11,559 bases of DNA from Anaerolineae bacterium (GTDB taxonomy: Bacteria > Chloroflexota > Anaerolineae > JAAYZQ01): the NCBI GenBank assembly GCA_016929795.1, contig JAFGIA010000220.1:1-11559 (forward strand). Reading direction: 5' to 3'. The notes under the pieces are model-generated. The model made no database searches. It was given only the letters and a program-made list of their open reading frames with translations, and was not told where the DNA came from. Both the position numbers and the translations under genes were made by a program. Of this stretch, positions 922-11,422 are shown in pieces. Within the stretch, counting starts at the first letter, position 1. Every line of letters begins with the position of its first letter.

Positions 922-2376
922 CTAGCCCTTCATCACCGCCAGCGGCCTCATGCGCGCCACCTTGCGCGCCAGGCCGGCGCCGTCCACCACCTCGATCACG
1001 GCGTGAATATCCTTGTACGCGTCCGGTGCCTCTTCGGCCAGCCCCGCCAGGCTGTCGGTGCGCACGGCGATGCCGCGCTCCTCCAGCTCTTTACGCAGCG
1101 TGCCACCATGGATCCGCTTCTTGGCCGCCGACCGGCTCATCGTGCGCCCGGCGCCGTGCGCCGAGGTGCCAAACGACTCTTCCAACGCGTCGGCCGTGCC
1201 CACCAGCACGTACGACGCCGTGCCCATGTCGCCGGGCACCAGCACCGGCTGCCCCACGGCGCGGTACACCGGGGTCACCGCCGGATGTCCCGGCCCAAAC
1301 GCGCGGGTCGCCCCCTTGCGGTGCACGCACAGCTTGGTCCGCTTGCCGTCCACCACGTGCTCCTCGATCTTGGCAATGTTGTGGCACACGTCGTACACGG
1401 TGTGCAGGTCGAACTTGTTCGTCCTGCGCGCCAGCACTTCTTCGAACGCCTGGCGCGCCAGGCCGGCCATCGCCTGCCTGTTGGCCCACGCATAGTTGGC
1501 GGCACACACCATCGCCCCATAGTAGCGCCTGCCTTCCGGCGAATCGAGCGGCGCACACACAAGCTGCCTGTCGGGCAGCACGATCTTGTACTTTTGCACC
1601 GCGGCCTGCAGGCTTCTCACATAGTCGCTGCACACCTCGTGGCCCAGGCCACGCGAGCCCGAGTGGATCTCGACGGTGAGCTGCCCCTGGAACAGGCCAA
1701 AGGCGCGCGCCACCGCCTCGTCGTAAATCTCGTCCACCTCCTGGATCTCGATAAAGTGGTTGCCCGACCCGAGTGTGCCAATTTGCGGCCCGCCGCGCTC
1801 CTTTGCCCTGGCGCTGACCGCCGACGGGTCGGCGCCGTCCATCGCGCCCCCCTCCTCCAACCGTTCCAGGTCCTCGGGCCGGCCATAGCCTGCCTTCACC
1901 GCCCAGCCTGCACCCTTGACGAGCACCTCATCCATCTCGCGCCCCGACACCCTGCGCGCGCCGCCCCCCTTGCCCACACCGCTCGGCACGTGCTTGAACA
2001 GCGACGTGATCAGGGCATCCACCTCACCGCGCACGTCGTCGGCCACCAGGTCCGACGCCATGAGCCGCACGCCGCAGTTGATGTCATAGCCCACGGCCCC
2101 CGGTGAGATGACCCCGTCAGGGTAGCGCGTGGCCACCACCCCACCGATTGGCGGGCCGTATCCCTGGTGCGCATCAGGCATCACCAACACGCGCTTGACC
2201 ACCCCAGGCAATGCCGCGGTATTTACGAGCTGGTCCAGGCTCTGGTCGCGGAACACCTGGTCCAGCAGCTCCTCACTGGCATAGATCCGCGCCGGCACCT
2301 TCATGTCTGCACGGTAGCTCTGCGGAATTTCCCACACGTACTCACTGACCCGCACCAAATCAGCCTTGGTTACCAT
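922..2376 (-). CDS. rtcB: RNA-splicing ligase RtcB (3'-phosphate/5'-OH RNA ligase)
   Basis: This 484-residue protein has the length of the canonical long RtcB. RtcB joins RNA 2',3'-cyclic phosphate or 3'-phosphate ends to 5'-OH ends with GTP and Mn2+, in tRNA splicing or RNA repair. Visible motifs are MPDAHQGYGPPIGGV (67-80), GYDINCG with metal ligands Asp98 and Cys101, GSGNHF with His207, EIHSGSRGLGH with His238, CHNIAK with His332, and SAHGAGR with His407, the residue that takes the GMP. All match the ligand set known from archaeal RtcB, so the enzyme should be active. The ATG start has a GGGGGAGG ribosome binding site immediately upstream. It lies 84 bases behind the archease-coding segment, on the same strand; archease is the known factor that allows RtcB multiple turnover. 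Its stop codon directly abuts the sfsA remnant. Confidence 0.97.
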   Translation of the reverse strand: MVTKADLVRVSEYVWEIPQSYRADMKVPARIYASEELLDQVFRDQSLDQLVNTAALPGVVKRVLVMPDAHQGYGPPIGGVVATRYPDGVISPGAVGYDINCGVRLMASDLVADDVRGEVDALITSLFKHVPSGVGKGGGARRVSGREMDEVLVKGAGWAVKAGYGRPEDLERLEEGGAMDGADPSAVSARAKERGGPQIGTLGSGNHFIEIQEVDEIYDEAVARAFGLFQGQLTVEIHSGSRGLGHEVCSDYVRSLQAAVQKYKIVLPDRQLVCAPLDSPEGRRYYGAMVCAANYAWANRQAMAGLARQAFEEVLARRTNKFDLHTVYDVCHNIAKIEEHVVDGKRTKLCVHRKGATRAFGPGHPAVTPVYRAVGQPVLVPGDMGTASYVLVGTADALEESFGTSAHGAGRTMSRSAAKKRIHGGTLRKELEERGIAVRTDSLAGLAEEAPDAYKDIHAVIEVVDGAGLARKVARMRPLAVMKG

Positions 2377-2460: not shown

Positions 2461-2877
2461 CTACACGTCAAACGTAATCACCGTCGACCATCCCAACTCG
2501 TCTTCCACCAGGGCCAGGTCGTGAAACGTAGCGGCTTTGATGTGGGCCTTGGTGGGATGCCCCGGCACGCCCCCAGCGCGCGCTTGCAGGGCCGTATCAT
2601 TCAGCCACAAAATTCTCAAGTCCGAAAAGATCACGCCTTCCACCTCGGAGAGGTAGAGCAGCTCATTGAGCCAGTCGACGAGCAACGTCTCCCGGTCCAG
2701 GGCCTCGAGGTGGATGTCATACCACCTGGTCGCCGGCGCGCCATCTTGGAGGCTGCTCGTCAAGCTGAACATGCCTCGCGCCGCGCCGGTGAACAGGTCG
2801 GGCAGGTCCTTGCCCCACACCTGGAGGGCACGGTCGGCGGTGTGATCGATCTCGTAATAGCGAAATGGACAGGGCAT
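2461..2877 (-). other. Archease-coding segment (possible separate cistron)
   Basis: If the reading frame is interrupted at the G-run, this ATG would start a free 138-residue archease, the usual family length and with the usual N-terminal approach to the HTAD motif. Archease is a small metal-binding chaperone-like cofactor that speeds activation and turnover of RtcB; it also widens NTP use in some archaeal systems. The conserved HTAD (residues 12-15 of the segment) and the aspartates of LLVDWLNELLYL are present. The only purine-rich sequence before the ATG is the G-run itself, which touches the start codon, so independent initiation would probably need coupling to ribF. This entry describes a domain within the larger frame and is not a second copy. 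Confidence 0.6.
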
Positions 2878-3846
2878 CCCCCCCCCATCGCGGCTGACAT
2901 CCACACCCTCTGCCGCCAGCACCTGGCGCGCCTGCCTGCTGTCACGCTCGATCTGGGCGATCAGCTCGTCGATGGCACCAAAGCGCCGCTCTTTGCGCAG
3001 GCGAGCGACAAACTCGACGACCAGGTCGCAGCCATAGATATCCTGGTCAAAGTCAAAGAGATAGGTCTCGACCGTCCGCTCCCCATCGTCAAAGCTGGGC
3101 CGCACGCCGACGTTGGCCACAGCCGGATAGCGCGTGGTCCCCAGCAGCGCAAATACCGCATACACGCCATTGGCCGGCACCGCACGCTCGTCGCGCACCT
3201 CCAGGTTGGCGGTCGGAAAGCCGAGCTGCCGGCCGCGCCGGGCACCCGACACCACCTCACCCGACACGCTCGGGTAGCGGCCAAGCAGGCGCGCGGCCTC
3301 AGCGACCGCTCCCTGTTGGATCAGGGAGCGGATGCGCGAGCTCGAGATCGGTACACCACCCTCGACGACTGGAGGCACGACGTGCACTCGGTAACCCAAC
3401 TCCTGGCCCAACTCGCGCAGCCGCTTCACGTCACCCTCCCGGCCACGTCCGAGAGCAAAGTCGGCGCCCACCCACAGCTCACGCAGCCCCAGGCGCTCGC
3501 CCACCCTCTCCATAAAATCCCGGGCAGTCATGTTGGCCACCTCGTGATTGAAGGGCAGTAGCACAACCAGGTCGAGGCCCAGCGCCTCGAGCAGGGCAAT
3601 CTTTTCACCAGGCGTCGTCAGATATTTCGGCGCACGTGCCGGCGCCAGGATGACTGCGGGGTGGGGATGGAACGTCATCAAGGCAGCCTTCCGGCCCGTG
3701 GCGCGTGCCCGCTCGATCACACCCGCGATGAGTGCCTGGTGGCCGCGGTGCACCCCGTCAAAGGCCCCAATCGTCAGAATAGTCTCTTCCCGCTGGCGCC
3801 GCGCCGGGTACCCCCCGCCTGACGCCAGATCGTCAATCACTTCCAT
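2461..3846 (-). CDS. ribF: Bifunctional riboflavin kinase/FAD synthetase RibF fused in frame to a C-terminal archease domain
   Basis: One 461-residue open frame contains two complete proteins. Residues 1-310 are RibF, which phosphorylates riboflavin to FMN and adenylylates FMN to FAD: GAFDGVHRGH (27-36), HPHP (60-63), ISSSRIR (168-173), the kinase motif GRQLGFPTANL (205-215), NVGVRPSF (245-252) and Glu260 of TVETYLFDFD. Residues 324-461 are a full-length archease: YYEIDHTADRALQVWG, LLVDWLNELLYL (388-399), IKAATFHDL (436-444) and the C-terminal ITFDV. Archease promotes guanylylation of RtcB, the next gene. The linker is short (about 314-323) and runs through nine consecutive G, so the fusion depends on the exact length of that run. 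The ATG start lies 14 bases inside truB, without a clear ribosome binding site, which suggests translational coupling. An upstream in-frame start at 4035 would add 63 non-homologous residues and is not preferred. Confidence 0.88.
   Translation of the reverse strand: MEVIDDLASGGGYPARRQREETILTIGAFDGVHRGHQALIAGVIERARATGRKAALMTFHPHPAVILAPARAPKYLTTPGEKIALLEALGLDLVVLLPFNHEVANMTARDFMERVGERLGLRELWVGADFALGRGREGDVKRLRELGQELGYRVHVVPPVVEGGVPISSSRIRSLIQQGAVAEAARLLGRYPSVSGEVVSGARRGRQLGFPTANLEVRDERAVPANGVYAVFALLGTTRYPAVANVGVRPSFDDGERTVETYLFDFDQDIYGCDLVVEFVARLRKERRFGAIDELIAQIERDSRQARQVLAAEGVDVSRDGGGMPCPFRYYEIDHTADRALQVWGKDLPDLFTGAARGMFSLTSSLQDGAPATRWYDIHLEALDRETLLVDWLNELLYLSEVEGVIFSDLRILWLNDTALQARAGGVPGHPTKAHIKAATFHDLALVEDELGWSTVITFDV
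2878..2886. repeat. Homopolymer of nine C (nine G in the ribF mRNA) at the RibF-archease junction
   Basis: Nine consecutive C on the plus strand correspond to three Gly codons (GAT GGG GGG GGG ATG) between the end of RibF and the first Met of archease. With eight G the RibF frame ends at a stop near 2760. With ten it ends at a TGA near 2719. In both cases RibF keeps its whole domain and archease is uncoupled. The site is therefore prone to replication or transcription slippage and also to sequencing error. Confidence 0.9.
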
Positions 3847-4831
3847 CGGCTGTCGCAAACACCTTCTTGGGCTGCCACTCTCCGCTATCTGGCTGGTAGA
3901 TGACAAGGGCGAGAAACTCACCGTCGAGGCTATAAGCGCGGGCCAGGGTCCGAGCGTGCCCGGGCGCTGCGTCTTCCCCCCCGGGTCGATCGCCGGGCAC
4001 CGCACCACCCTGCACGAGGCGGTGCGTCTGTTCATCGTTCAGAACCAATGCGGGCCAATCGAGCACCGCCTCGTCGATGGGCAGCAGGTAGCGCCCCTCC
4101 TCGCCGTGGCGAAACGCCTCCTCCAGCCGCTCCAGGCTCACCGCGTCGTGCAAGGTAAAGTGTCCACTTTGCAAACGCACCAGGGCGCCCAGGTAGGCAC
4201 TGCTGTTCAGCGCATGTCCGAGATCGTGTGCCAGCGAGCGGATGTAGGTGCCAGGGGAGCAAGTGATCTCGAGAATCAGCTCTGGCTCAGTCCAGGCGAG
4301 GATCTCGACGGCATCGATCTCGACAGGCCGGGGATGAGGCACCACAGCGAGTTCCCCCCGGGCTTTGCCCTCACGCGCAAGCCGGTGCAGAGGGCGCCCA
4401 TCGCGCTTGAGCGCCGAGTAGACAGGGGGCACCTGCTTGATTGGACCACGAAAGGCGGCCAGCGCCACTTCGATCTCTTCTCGGCGGAAATCGGTGCGGG
4501 TGCCGCTCCGCATCACCTCTCCGTCGGCGTCATAGGTATCCGTCTCGCTGCCAAATACCAGGGTGGCTCGATAGCGCTTGCGCCCCGCCATCAGGTACTC
4601 GCTGACACGCGTCGCCTGGCCCAGGCAAACCAGGAGGACGCCGGTAGCCATCGGGTCGAGCGTGCCGGCGTGTCCCACCTTGCGCTGCCCGGCGATCCGG
4701 CGCACCGCGTCGACGACATCGTGAGAGGTGATGCCTGCCGGCTTGTCTATGTTCAAGATACCTGTCAGCGGCTCGTCGCGCCGGGGCGCAACCCACCATT
4801 GCCGCTGGGGGCAGGTGGCGCAATCAGCCAT
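3833..4831 (-). CDS. truB: tRNA pseudouridine(55) synthase TruB
   Basis: TruB converts U55 in the T-loop of tRNA to pseudouridine. From the ATG at 4831 the protein is 332 residues. It shows the family entry motif GILNIDKPAGITSHDVV (24-40) and the catalytic loop KVGHAGTLDPMATGVL with Asp59. Next come KRYRATLVFGSETDTYDADGE (about 85-105) and PPVYSALKRDGRPLHRLAREG. The SPGTYIRSLAHDLG segment and a C-terminal PUA-like region follow. A GTG at 4894 would lengthen it by 21 residues. I prefer 4831 because the upstream stretch forms two stable hairpins and has no homology to TruB; a weak GGAA lies before the ATG. The extra N-terminus MADCATCPQRQ carries two Cys that are not a usual TruB feature. Its end overlaps the ribF start by 14 bases. 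Confidence 0.95.
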   Translation of the reverse strand: MADCATCPQRQWWVAPRRDEPLTGILNIDKPAGITSHDVVDAVRRIAGQRKVGHAGTLDPMATGVLLVCLGQATRVSEYLMAGRKRYRATLVFGSETDTYDADGEVMRSGTRTDFRREEIEVALAAFRGPIKQVPPVYSALKRDGRPLHRLAREGKARGELAVVPHPRPVEIDAVEILAWTEPELILEITCSPGTYIRSLAHDLGHALNSSAYLGALVRLQSGHFTLHDAVSLERLEEAFRHGEEGRYLLPIDEAVLDWPALVLNDEQTHRLVQGGAVPGDRPGGEDAAPGHARTLARAYSLDGEFLALVIYQPDSGEWQPKKVFATADGSD

Positions 4832-4859
4832 CACTATTCCATTTCCAGGGTGCCGCCGT

Positions 4860-4916
4860 GGCCGGGCATGGGAGCCCAGCCTGTTGGATTGCACAGGGGC
4901 GGCTGCTGCACCGCCC
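4860..4916 (-). other. Two tandem hairpins in the nrnA-truB gap
   Basis: The 93-base gap (4832-4924) contains GGGCGG (4897-4902) and CCGCCC (4911-4916), a 6-base-pair stem with an 8-base loop. It also has GGCCGGGC (4860-4867) and GCCCAGCC (4874-4881), an 8-base-pair stem with one G-U pair and a 6-base loop. Neither is followed by a U-run on the minus strand, so they are not classical terminators. They may protect or separate mRNA segments, or act on truB translation; the function is unknown. Confidence 0.45.
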
Positions 4917-10469: not shown

Positions 10470-10586
10470 TTTCAACCGCCTACTCCTCCCTCAATCCACC
10501 AGGCACCGTCTCACCTGGCCCTTCTGTTCCCCCCGCCTCCCGAACCCTGACCGGCATCCCCAGCCTTGCAATACTCTCTGATAGCA

Positions 10587-10701: not shown

Positions 10702-10730
10702 TTGCCCGCCCGCACACAAAATGGTACAAT
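10702..10730 (+). promoter_or_regulatory. Predicted sigma70-type promoter of the DUF3786-like gene
   Basis: TTGCCC (10702-10707), a 17-base spacer, and TACAAT (10725-10730) preceded by TGG form an extended -10 promoter. The start would be near 10737, only about 17 bases before the ATG at 10754. It is back to back with the nusA promoter, with about 31 bases between the two -35 elements. Confidence 0.6.
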
Positions 10731-10747
10731 CGCTCCCAGGAGGAGCG
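10731..10747 (+). promoter_or_regulatory. Ribosome binding site embedded in a short palindrome
   Basis: AGGAGGAG (10738-10745) is a near-perfect Shine-Dalgarno sequence placed 8 bases before the ATG at 10754; it decides that start over the ATG at 10721. It lies inside CGCTCC (10731-10736) and GGAGCG (10742-10747), arms of an inverted repeat. The palindrome spans the predicted transcription start, so it could be an operator. If the transcript includes its left arm, it could be a hairpin hiding the binding site. Confidence 0.5.
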
Positions 10748-10753
10748 ACGACA

Positions 10754-11422
10754 ATGAATCTACAGCCACGATCGCCGGAAGAAACGTATGGCCCAGCCCT
10801 GGAGCACGCCCATCAGGCCTTCCCCTACCTCGACCCGGCGGCGGCGGCAGCGCGAGCAGGCGTCGACTACCATCCTACCGCGGACGGCACCGGCACTTTT
10901 CAGGTTCCCTTCCTGGGCACGCTCTACCACGTCTCATGGCCTGCCGGCGGCGTGCAGCGTGCACAAGACAAAAGCGGAAGCGAACCACTACCTGCCGACG
11001 TGACGACCACCCTCATCCTCCTCCACTACCTGCTCACCGCCGATGGCAGCCCGATGGCCGACAACTGGGTGGCCTTTCGTTCCCTGCCTGGTGGTCTGGG
11101 ATACGAAGCTGCTTTCCACGGCAGAGCCAGCGGTCGCATCGAGCGCACATTTGGCAGCGACCGCCACGCGTTCGAGCAAGCAGCAAAGGCAATAGGCGGC
11201 GAGCCGCTCACCTTTGGCGATGCCTCGTTCGCCTTCCGGCCACTGCCCCGGCTCTGGATGGCTACTGTGCTCTACCTCGCCGACGACGAGTTCCCTGCCA
11301 GTGGCAACGTGCTCTTTGACGGCAGCGCAAGCCACTACCTGCCTACCGAAGACCTGGCAGTGCTCGGCGGCTTGCTGGCCAGCCGGCTGATCAGGGCAGC
11401 ACGCGCGCACACGCACGGATGA
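10754..11422 (+). CDS. DUF3786-like protein of unknown function
   Basis: The 222-residue soluble protein resembles, from memory, the DUF3786 family. Its landmarks are the TLYHVSWPAGG strand (57-66), TTLILLHYLLTADGSPMADNWVAFRSLPGG (85-114), an IERTFGSDRHAFEQAAKAIGGEP helix (129-151), and GDASFAFRPLPRLWMATVLYLADDEFPA (155-182). These are followed by NVLFDGSASHYLPTEDLAVLG (185-205). There is no signal peptide, membrane segment or Cys cluster. No enzymatic function is established for this family to my knowledge. It is divergent from nusA with its own promoter and strong ribosome binding site, and converges on the tRNA-Ser gene. The start at 10754 is preferred to 10721 because the latter lies upstream of the predicted transcript start. 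Confidence 0.82.
   Translation: MNLQPRSPEETYGPALEHAHQAFPYLDPAAAAARAGVDYHPTADGTGTFQVPFLGTLYHVSWPAGGVQRAQDKSGSEPLPADVTTTLILLHYLLTADGSPMADNWVAFRSLPGGLGYEAAFHGRASGRIERTFGSDRHAFEQAAKAIGGEPLTFGDASFAFRPLPRLWMATVLYLADDEFPASGNVLFDGSASHYLPTEDLAVLGGLLASRLIRAARAHTHG

Follow-up and report, generated by a model that had tools for sequence, protein, structure and literature searches.

The stretch of DNA analysed here, to which we refer throughout as the window, is an 11,559-nucleotide sequence from an Anaerolineae bacterium. Its minus strand carries, from about position 10475 downwards, the gene order nusA, ylxR, infB, rbfA, a DHH phosphoesterase gene, truB, a fusion gene that joins the FAD synthetase RibF to archease, and rtcB; nusA, ylxR, and infB were named from their translations, and rbfA, the DHH phosphoesterase gene, truB, and rtcB were tested with Pfam. 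The truB gene (3833..4894, minus strand; Pfam TruB_N and TruB_C_2) overlaps the ribF start by 14 nucleotides. On the other side of the fusion gene, 84 nucleotides past its stop and on the same strand, begins rtcB (922..2376, minus strand), which encodes the RNA ligase activated by archease and matches the Pfam RtcB profile over positions 1-426 of 426 at 580 bits, so that the placing of rtcB next to the fusion gene by a first-pass annotation made from the sequence alone is confirmed. At the margins of the window, a divergent DUF3786 gene (10721-11422, plus strand; 174.5 bits) lies beside the nusA end of the cluster, and positions 1-603 of the plus strand hold the 3' end of a gene that by eye is MFS transporter-like and is cut by the window start.

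The fusion gene itself (2461..3846, minus strand) is open from an ATG at 3846 to a stop at 2461-2463 and encodes 461 amino acids, and its identification as a fusion draws on this open frame, on three Pfam domains, and on the fused relatives described below. The domains, all on the minus strand, are an FMN adenylyltransferase (FMNAT) domain (residues 17-171, 3334..3798; FAD_syn, 157.7 bits), a riboflavin kinase domain (residues 188-310, 2917..3285; Flavokinase, 145.8 bits), and an archease domain (residues 330-461, 2464..2859; Archease, 103.5 bits). All three matches lie above the Pfam curated cut-offs and each runs nearly from end to end of its profile; together with the reading frame they confirm that RibF and archease are both complete and share one frame with no stop between them, as had been claimed for this locus. 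RibF makes FAD and is not an oxidoreductase; its FMNAT motifs are GxHxGH and ISSxxxR, and its kinase part is recognized by PTAN and a catalytic Glu. The window protein, with FAD_syn and Flavokinase in one chain, has GVHRGH at 31-36, ISSSRIR at 167-173, PTAN at 211-214, and E260, which aligns with E268 of Corynebacterium ammoniagenes RibF in an alignment to 2x0k counted by hand. From these features we infer that the RibF half is an ordinary bacterial FAD synthetase that would convert riboflavin to FMN and FMN to FAD. The same patterns run through the 144 fusion proteins assembled below, where the first FMNAT pattern is found in 143/144, PTAN in 142/144, and the narrow ISS pattern in 99/144, with S168, S169, and R173 invariant in 71 of the 144. 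Structurally, the first 12 Foldseek matches of the fusion model are C. ammoniagenes FAD synthetase, whereas the archease half matches 8odo, 8btx, and 4n2p, the human archease chain 8odo_D at an E-value of 5.9e-9. The archease residues, placed by aligning the protein with 1jw3 and 4n2p, are H335, D338, K437, D460, and the C-terminal V461, so that the window protein has the Pfam domain, the fold, and the residues needed for activation in Pyrococcus horikoshii, where these are H9, D12, K117, D141, and the C-terminal residue (PMC3973293).

The two halves are joined by a linker (2875..2901, minus strand; residues 316-324) that is disordered in an AlphaFold2 model, where these residues fall below a pLDDT of 50 against a mean of 80.6 overall; the model is a moderate one (pTM 0.60, with the other four models at mean pLDDT 64-67), and the packing of its domains is not firm. 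Model confidence thus agrees with the earlier estimate of about ten residues for the linker. Within the linker lies a tract of nine G on the minus strand (C9 on the plus strand; 2878..2886), and this is where a miscounted run of bases might have joined two separate genes during sequencing or assembly. In a scripted frame test, 8 or 10 G in the tract led to a stop after 361 or 376 codons and to loss of the archease half. The closest relatives (P0002-P0005, 81-84% identical) answer this worry about the frame, which had been raised with the original annotation, because they read through the junction in the same frame and with the same residue count, with no insertion or deletion at the G9 tract; the junction residues themselves differ between these proteins and the window.

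Two protein searches bear on the same question. A search with the whole fusion gave 7593 matches, of which the best 120 all carry the three Pfam domains, and since such a query favours fused proteins, the search was repeated with the RibF part alone, whereupon the best 120 of 7872 matches were again all found to carry an archease domain; the two listings together comprise 144 distinct proteins, the window's included. Among the matches listed in either search every relative is fused, and relatives that always keep the two as separate genes, against which the first-pass annotation had wished its reading to be checked, did not appear. Because the frame is intact in the closest relatives and the listed RibF relatives carry archease, we rejected the frameshift artefact, to which we assign next to no probability.

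At the level of genomes, 377 of 396 Anaerolineae genomes match the fusion query, and at least 43/396, by hand count, read RibF into archease with no stop, 42 of them with both parts in the same frame by profile, to which a further genome (G423) and the window are added. The remaining one of the 43, G317, has an archease that scored below the profile cut-off. Related genomes with RibF and archease in one protein are thus many within Anaerolineae, and what had looked like a single odd gene is a common and probably recurrent arrangement arising from the order truB-ribF-archease-rtcB. In all 43 fused genomes tested for copy number (43/43), there is a single Flavokinase and a single Archease match, the archease of G317 being sub-threshold; as the frames that hold the two are equally long, no riboflavin kinase or archease was found in these genomes beyond the fused copy.

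Wider samples were also covered. Archease was found in 95/301 genomes of a Chloroflexota-wide sample, in which three archease frames reach 440 codons or more, with RibF in two of them (G003 and G189) and not in the third (G080). It was found in 156/237 genomes from the phylum of an Omnitrophota genome and in 92/247 from the phylum of an Acidobacteriota genome. No RibF-archease fusion was seen in the Omnitrophota-phylum sample, where the longest archease frame among the matches listed has 253 codons, or in the Acidobacteriota-phylum sample, where the long frames fetched had no RibF match; 28 long-frame stretches fetched from the three samples gave no match to the RibF profile, and fusions split by contig ends would escape all of these genome counts. 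The Acidobacteriota-phylum archease frames of 342 to 948 codons were set aside as stop-free stretches with, by eye, no recognisable protein before archease, and an archease-RtcB fusion suspected in the same sample was not found. Two other archease frames were noted in passing, namely a GIY-YIG, nuclease-type domain followed by archease in one frame of 253 residues (L171, 2505-3263, plus strand; G814, Omnitrophota-phylum sample), and a Beta-lactamase superfamily domain (33 bits, partial) together with archease in 360 residues (L051, 2178-3257, plus strand; G164, Chloroflexota sample).

How the fusion arose can be approached through the neighbourhood of ribF, which in many bacteria, for example as ribC of Bacillus subtilis, lies beside truB, so that archease may have become its neighbour there for no further reason. 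In other Anaerolineae, truB, ribF, archease, and rtcB stand as separate neighbours, and in one stretch (L001) ribF and archease are separated by an in-frame TAG. We built a maximum-likelihood RibF tree from 91 of 95 labelled stretches, dropping the duplicates L069, L091, and L006 as well as L118 (G317); 44 of these 91 are fused (42 of the 43 genomes, the window, and G423, which is partly masked and had no copy-number test), in 23 archease is the gene that follows ribF, and 24 show neither arrangement; 44/91 is not a frequency, because the selection was made among the best matches in the genome search. On this tree the fused state needs 11 changes, at least 7 of them forced by well supported branches, and a tree constrained to hold the fused genes together as a single clade is rejected (p-AU 8.6e-12). 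Under equal-cost parsimony, an unfused root implies ten gains and one loss, and a fused root implies five gains and six losses, whereas once a gain costs at least 3 times as much as a loss, one fused ancestor with 17 losses becomes cheapest. Repeated independent fusion from neighbouring genes is therefore the favoured reading of the tree, though not a proven one, and a single origin followed by 17 losses is possible. G340 and G315, both fused and with rtcB next, fall together with the window (support 99/88 and 100/99). Elsewhere, 34/44 fused stretches have no rtcB directly downstream (some being cut by contig ends), and since the fusion persists in the largest group, where this holds for 30/30 fused rows within the stretch, adjacency to rtcB is not what keeps it.

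The junctions carry further traces of the putative route. In 43 of the 44 fused stretches the profile matches are separated by a linker of 4 to 24 residues (L119, the remaining one, is masked at this place), and a rougher anchor puts the linker at about 3 to 71 residues in 143/144 proteins. An ATG, that of M324 (2875..2877, minus strand), follows the G9 tract in the window and may be left over from a time when archease had a start codon of its own; the fusions L071, L073, L076, L077, L082, and L117 likewise keep a methionine close to where archease begins. That such methionines occur in several separate lineages of fusions fits a recent loss of the ribF stop. As a side observation, L076, L077, and L119 (G362, G405, and G423) form a tight clade far from that of the window, with a methionine (NPMAG) before archease. 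Such a start codon might also be in use, so that the gene would yield both the fusion and free archease by internal initiation at M324, which is compatible with the explanation we prefer: the ATG lies directly behind the G run, which might serve as a weak site for the ribosome, and its methionine is conserved in P0002-P0005, but there is no spacer at all between G run and ATG, and a methionine occurs in that stretch in only 18/144 proteins, the window's included, so that we consider such dual products unlikely. The fixed 1:1 ratio of the two activities proposed earlier accordingly stands for lineages that have no internal start, whereas in the window M324 might allow separate archease to be made.

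Adjacency alone might account for all of this if a stop lost between two co-transcribed genes is tolerable, is rarely regained, and brings no benefit, a neutral ratchet that overlaps the explanation we prefer. The 5 to 173 nucleotides between the two profile matches in the separate forms, the varying linkers, and the production of archease with N-terminal tags (PMC12263435, PMC10944509) are in keeping with it. Yet neighbouring pairs have not fused alike, since 44/67 adjacent ribF-archease pairs are fused as against 0/78 truB-ribF pairs and 0/27 archease-rtcB pairs, although RibF may simply not tolerate fusion on the truB side, and the 4-residue linkers without methionine in some fused lineages tie the two products together for good. 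We hold a purely neutral course to be distinctly improbable, and the restriction of fusion to the ribF-archease junction may mean that linkage brings a benefit which neighbourhood by itself does not.

The absence of archease-rtcB fusions has a candidate explanation in the archease C-terminus. In P. horikoshii archease, D141 and the C-terminal carboxylate are metal ligands and are needed for full activity (PMC3973293). The terminal D-x is kept in the fusions: all 44 fused rows (44/44) end exactly in D-V or D-T, 23/23 adjacent rows keep D-x, and in the protein set 138/144 end in D-V and two in D-A, with four apparently cut off. A requirement for a free C-terminus would explain why RibF could be added at the N-terminus while archease and rtcB have not fused. 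The archease Lys was recognized by eye in 17 rows (10 fused and 7 adjacent) that lie outside the script pattern. The conserved His is present in 35/44 fused and 23/23 adjacent rows (by script and by eye, the HTAD of L119 and L142 having been read by eye), and in nine fused rows, all within one 16-row clade, it is replaced by Tyr (8) or Ser (1). Substitution of this His in P. horikoshii archease severely reduced activation (PMC3973293), and the nine fused archeases that have lost it may therefore lack the known mode of RtcB activation and may have a changed function. These rows (L098, L102, L109, L110, L111, L112, L115, L116, and L050), in which the His of HTAD is Tyr or Ser, keep the C-terminal D-T, and RtcB was found in eight of their genomes (G458, G470, G525, G408, G367, G534, G479, and G189) and not in the ninth (G507). 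Overall, an RtcB match was found in 37/43 fused draft genomes and was missing in G374, G482, G498, G565, G507, and G317, draft assemblies that may be incomplete. In some genomes the rtcB frame is about 940-1030 codons long and the match to the RtcB profile breaks at about position 50 (G364, G361, G335, G341, G307, and G432, and likewise G489, G389, G379, G408, and G367), and in G364 (L173, 542-3517, minus strand) an insert of about 500 residues at the active-site motif YDIN-CGVR is, by eye, intein-like. Inteins are a known feature of RtcB.

Taken together, these observations make it likely that two working enzymes of one predicted operon became a single chain when the ribF stop was lost, and that their domains are largely independent. 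The starting order would have been archease, often with rtcB, directly behind truB-ribF in Anaerolineae; in-frame loss of the ribF stop codon would have turned the spacer into a flexible and variable linker, and the product would be a trifunctional polypeptide with an N-terminal FAD synthetase and an ordinary C-terminal archease assisting the transfer of GMP to the RtcB of the neighbouring gene, with the fusion setting the ratio of the two halves. Our proposal for why the fusion is tolerated is that archease can bear an extension at its N-terminus, while the carboxylate at its C-terminus has to stay free and exposed.

A functional coupling of the two halves would give the fusion a further purpose, either in that the RibF half senses or supplies flavin and RtcB activation follows the flavin or redox state, or in that local FAD charges a PYROXD1-like protector of the RtcB active-site cysteine; we consider coupling, in either version, unlikely. 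In the strongest form, the fusion would be a regulatory device in which flavin or ATP occupancy of the RibF half gates GMP delivery by archease and its repeated appearance is convergence, a proposal we regard as quite improbable. Apparent recurrence of the fusion at the ribF-archease junction alone speaks for coupling, as does a cysteine just before the archease core in 135/144 proteins of the window's wider subclade, but by eye this cysteine is absent from those fused rows that do not belong to the three-row clade of the window (L113 has one nearby), neither the length nor the sequence of the linker is conserved, RibF supplies FAD without being a redox enzyme, and the samples of the Omnitrophota and Acidobacteriota phyla yielded no such fusion. 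Animals do have a link between a flavoprotein and RtcB: in human RTCB a cysteine of the active site is prone to oxidation and is shielded by PYROXD1, an FAD enzyme, which cannot be bound to RTCB together with archease (PMC12263435). This case makes a connection between flavin and RtcB thinkable; the link between flavin or redox state and RNA repair, marked as speculation when first proposed, finds no support at this locus, where linkers are not conserved.

Among the open-access papers listed, those on archease and gene fusion contain no RibF, archease together with riboflavin came up in a soil survey alone, those listed for FAD synthetase do not deal with archease, and nothing was found on RtcB with RibF or on archease with Anaerolineae. 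As far as the open-access literature reaches, then, the pairing is undescribed, as had been supposed, though subscription papers and domain-architecture databases may record one. Where the listed relatives carry a source name, it is FAD synthetase (RibF), FMN adenylyltransferase, or riboflavin kinase, and never archease, so that database annotation hides the archease half of these proteins. Archease is a transient helper, and its covalent tie to a flavin-making enzyme tests how much freedom it needs; the fusion lineages offer a natural test of RtcB activation being tied to metabolism, and the idea that archease must come last in a fusion, its C-terminus being a metal ligand, can be put to the test. 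Were the regulatory device true, the cell's flavin or redox state would set the course of RNA repair and tRNA ligation.

Compared with known systems, the window protein resembles the bifunctional FAD synthetase RibF of C. ammoniagenes (2x0k) and Thermotoga maritima (1mrz) in keeping its motifs, and residues 19-312 align along nearly the whole C. ammoniagenes enzyme (203.6 bits to 2x0k); known RibF enzymes stop after the kinase domain, whereas the window protein goes on for about 150 residues. With the archeases of P. horikoshii (4n2p), Methanothermobacter thermautotrophicus (1jw3), and human (8btx, 8odo) it shares the fold, the H, D, K, and D residues, and the free C-terminus, but the solved chains have 140-143 residues (human 183-200), whereas the window archease is preceded by an enzyme of about 310 residues. 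As in the tRNA splicing operon, where the archease coding sequence stands directly before rtcB (Desai 2014, PMC3973293), the two lie next to each other in the window, 84 nucleotides apart; unlike in that operon, the window archease has no gene of its own and forms the 3' end of ribF. The likeness to the PYROXD1-RTCB system of animals lies in a flavin-related protein being tied to the archease activation step of RtcB, and no homology is claimed, PYROXD1 being an FAD oxidoreductase bound at the active site of RTCB (PMC12263435), whereas RibF makes the cofactor.
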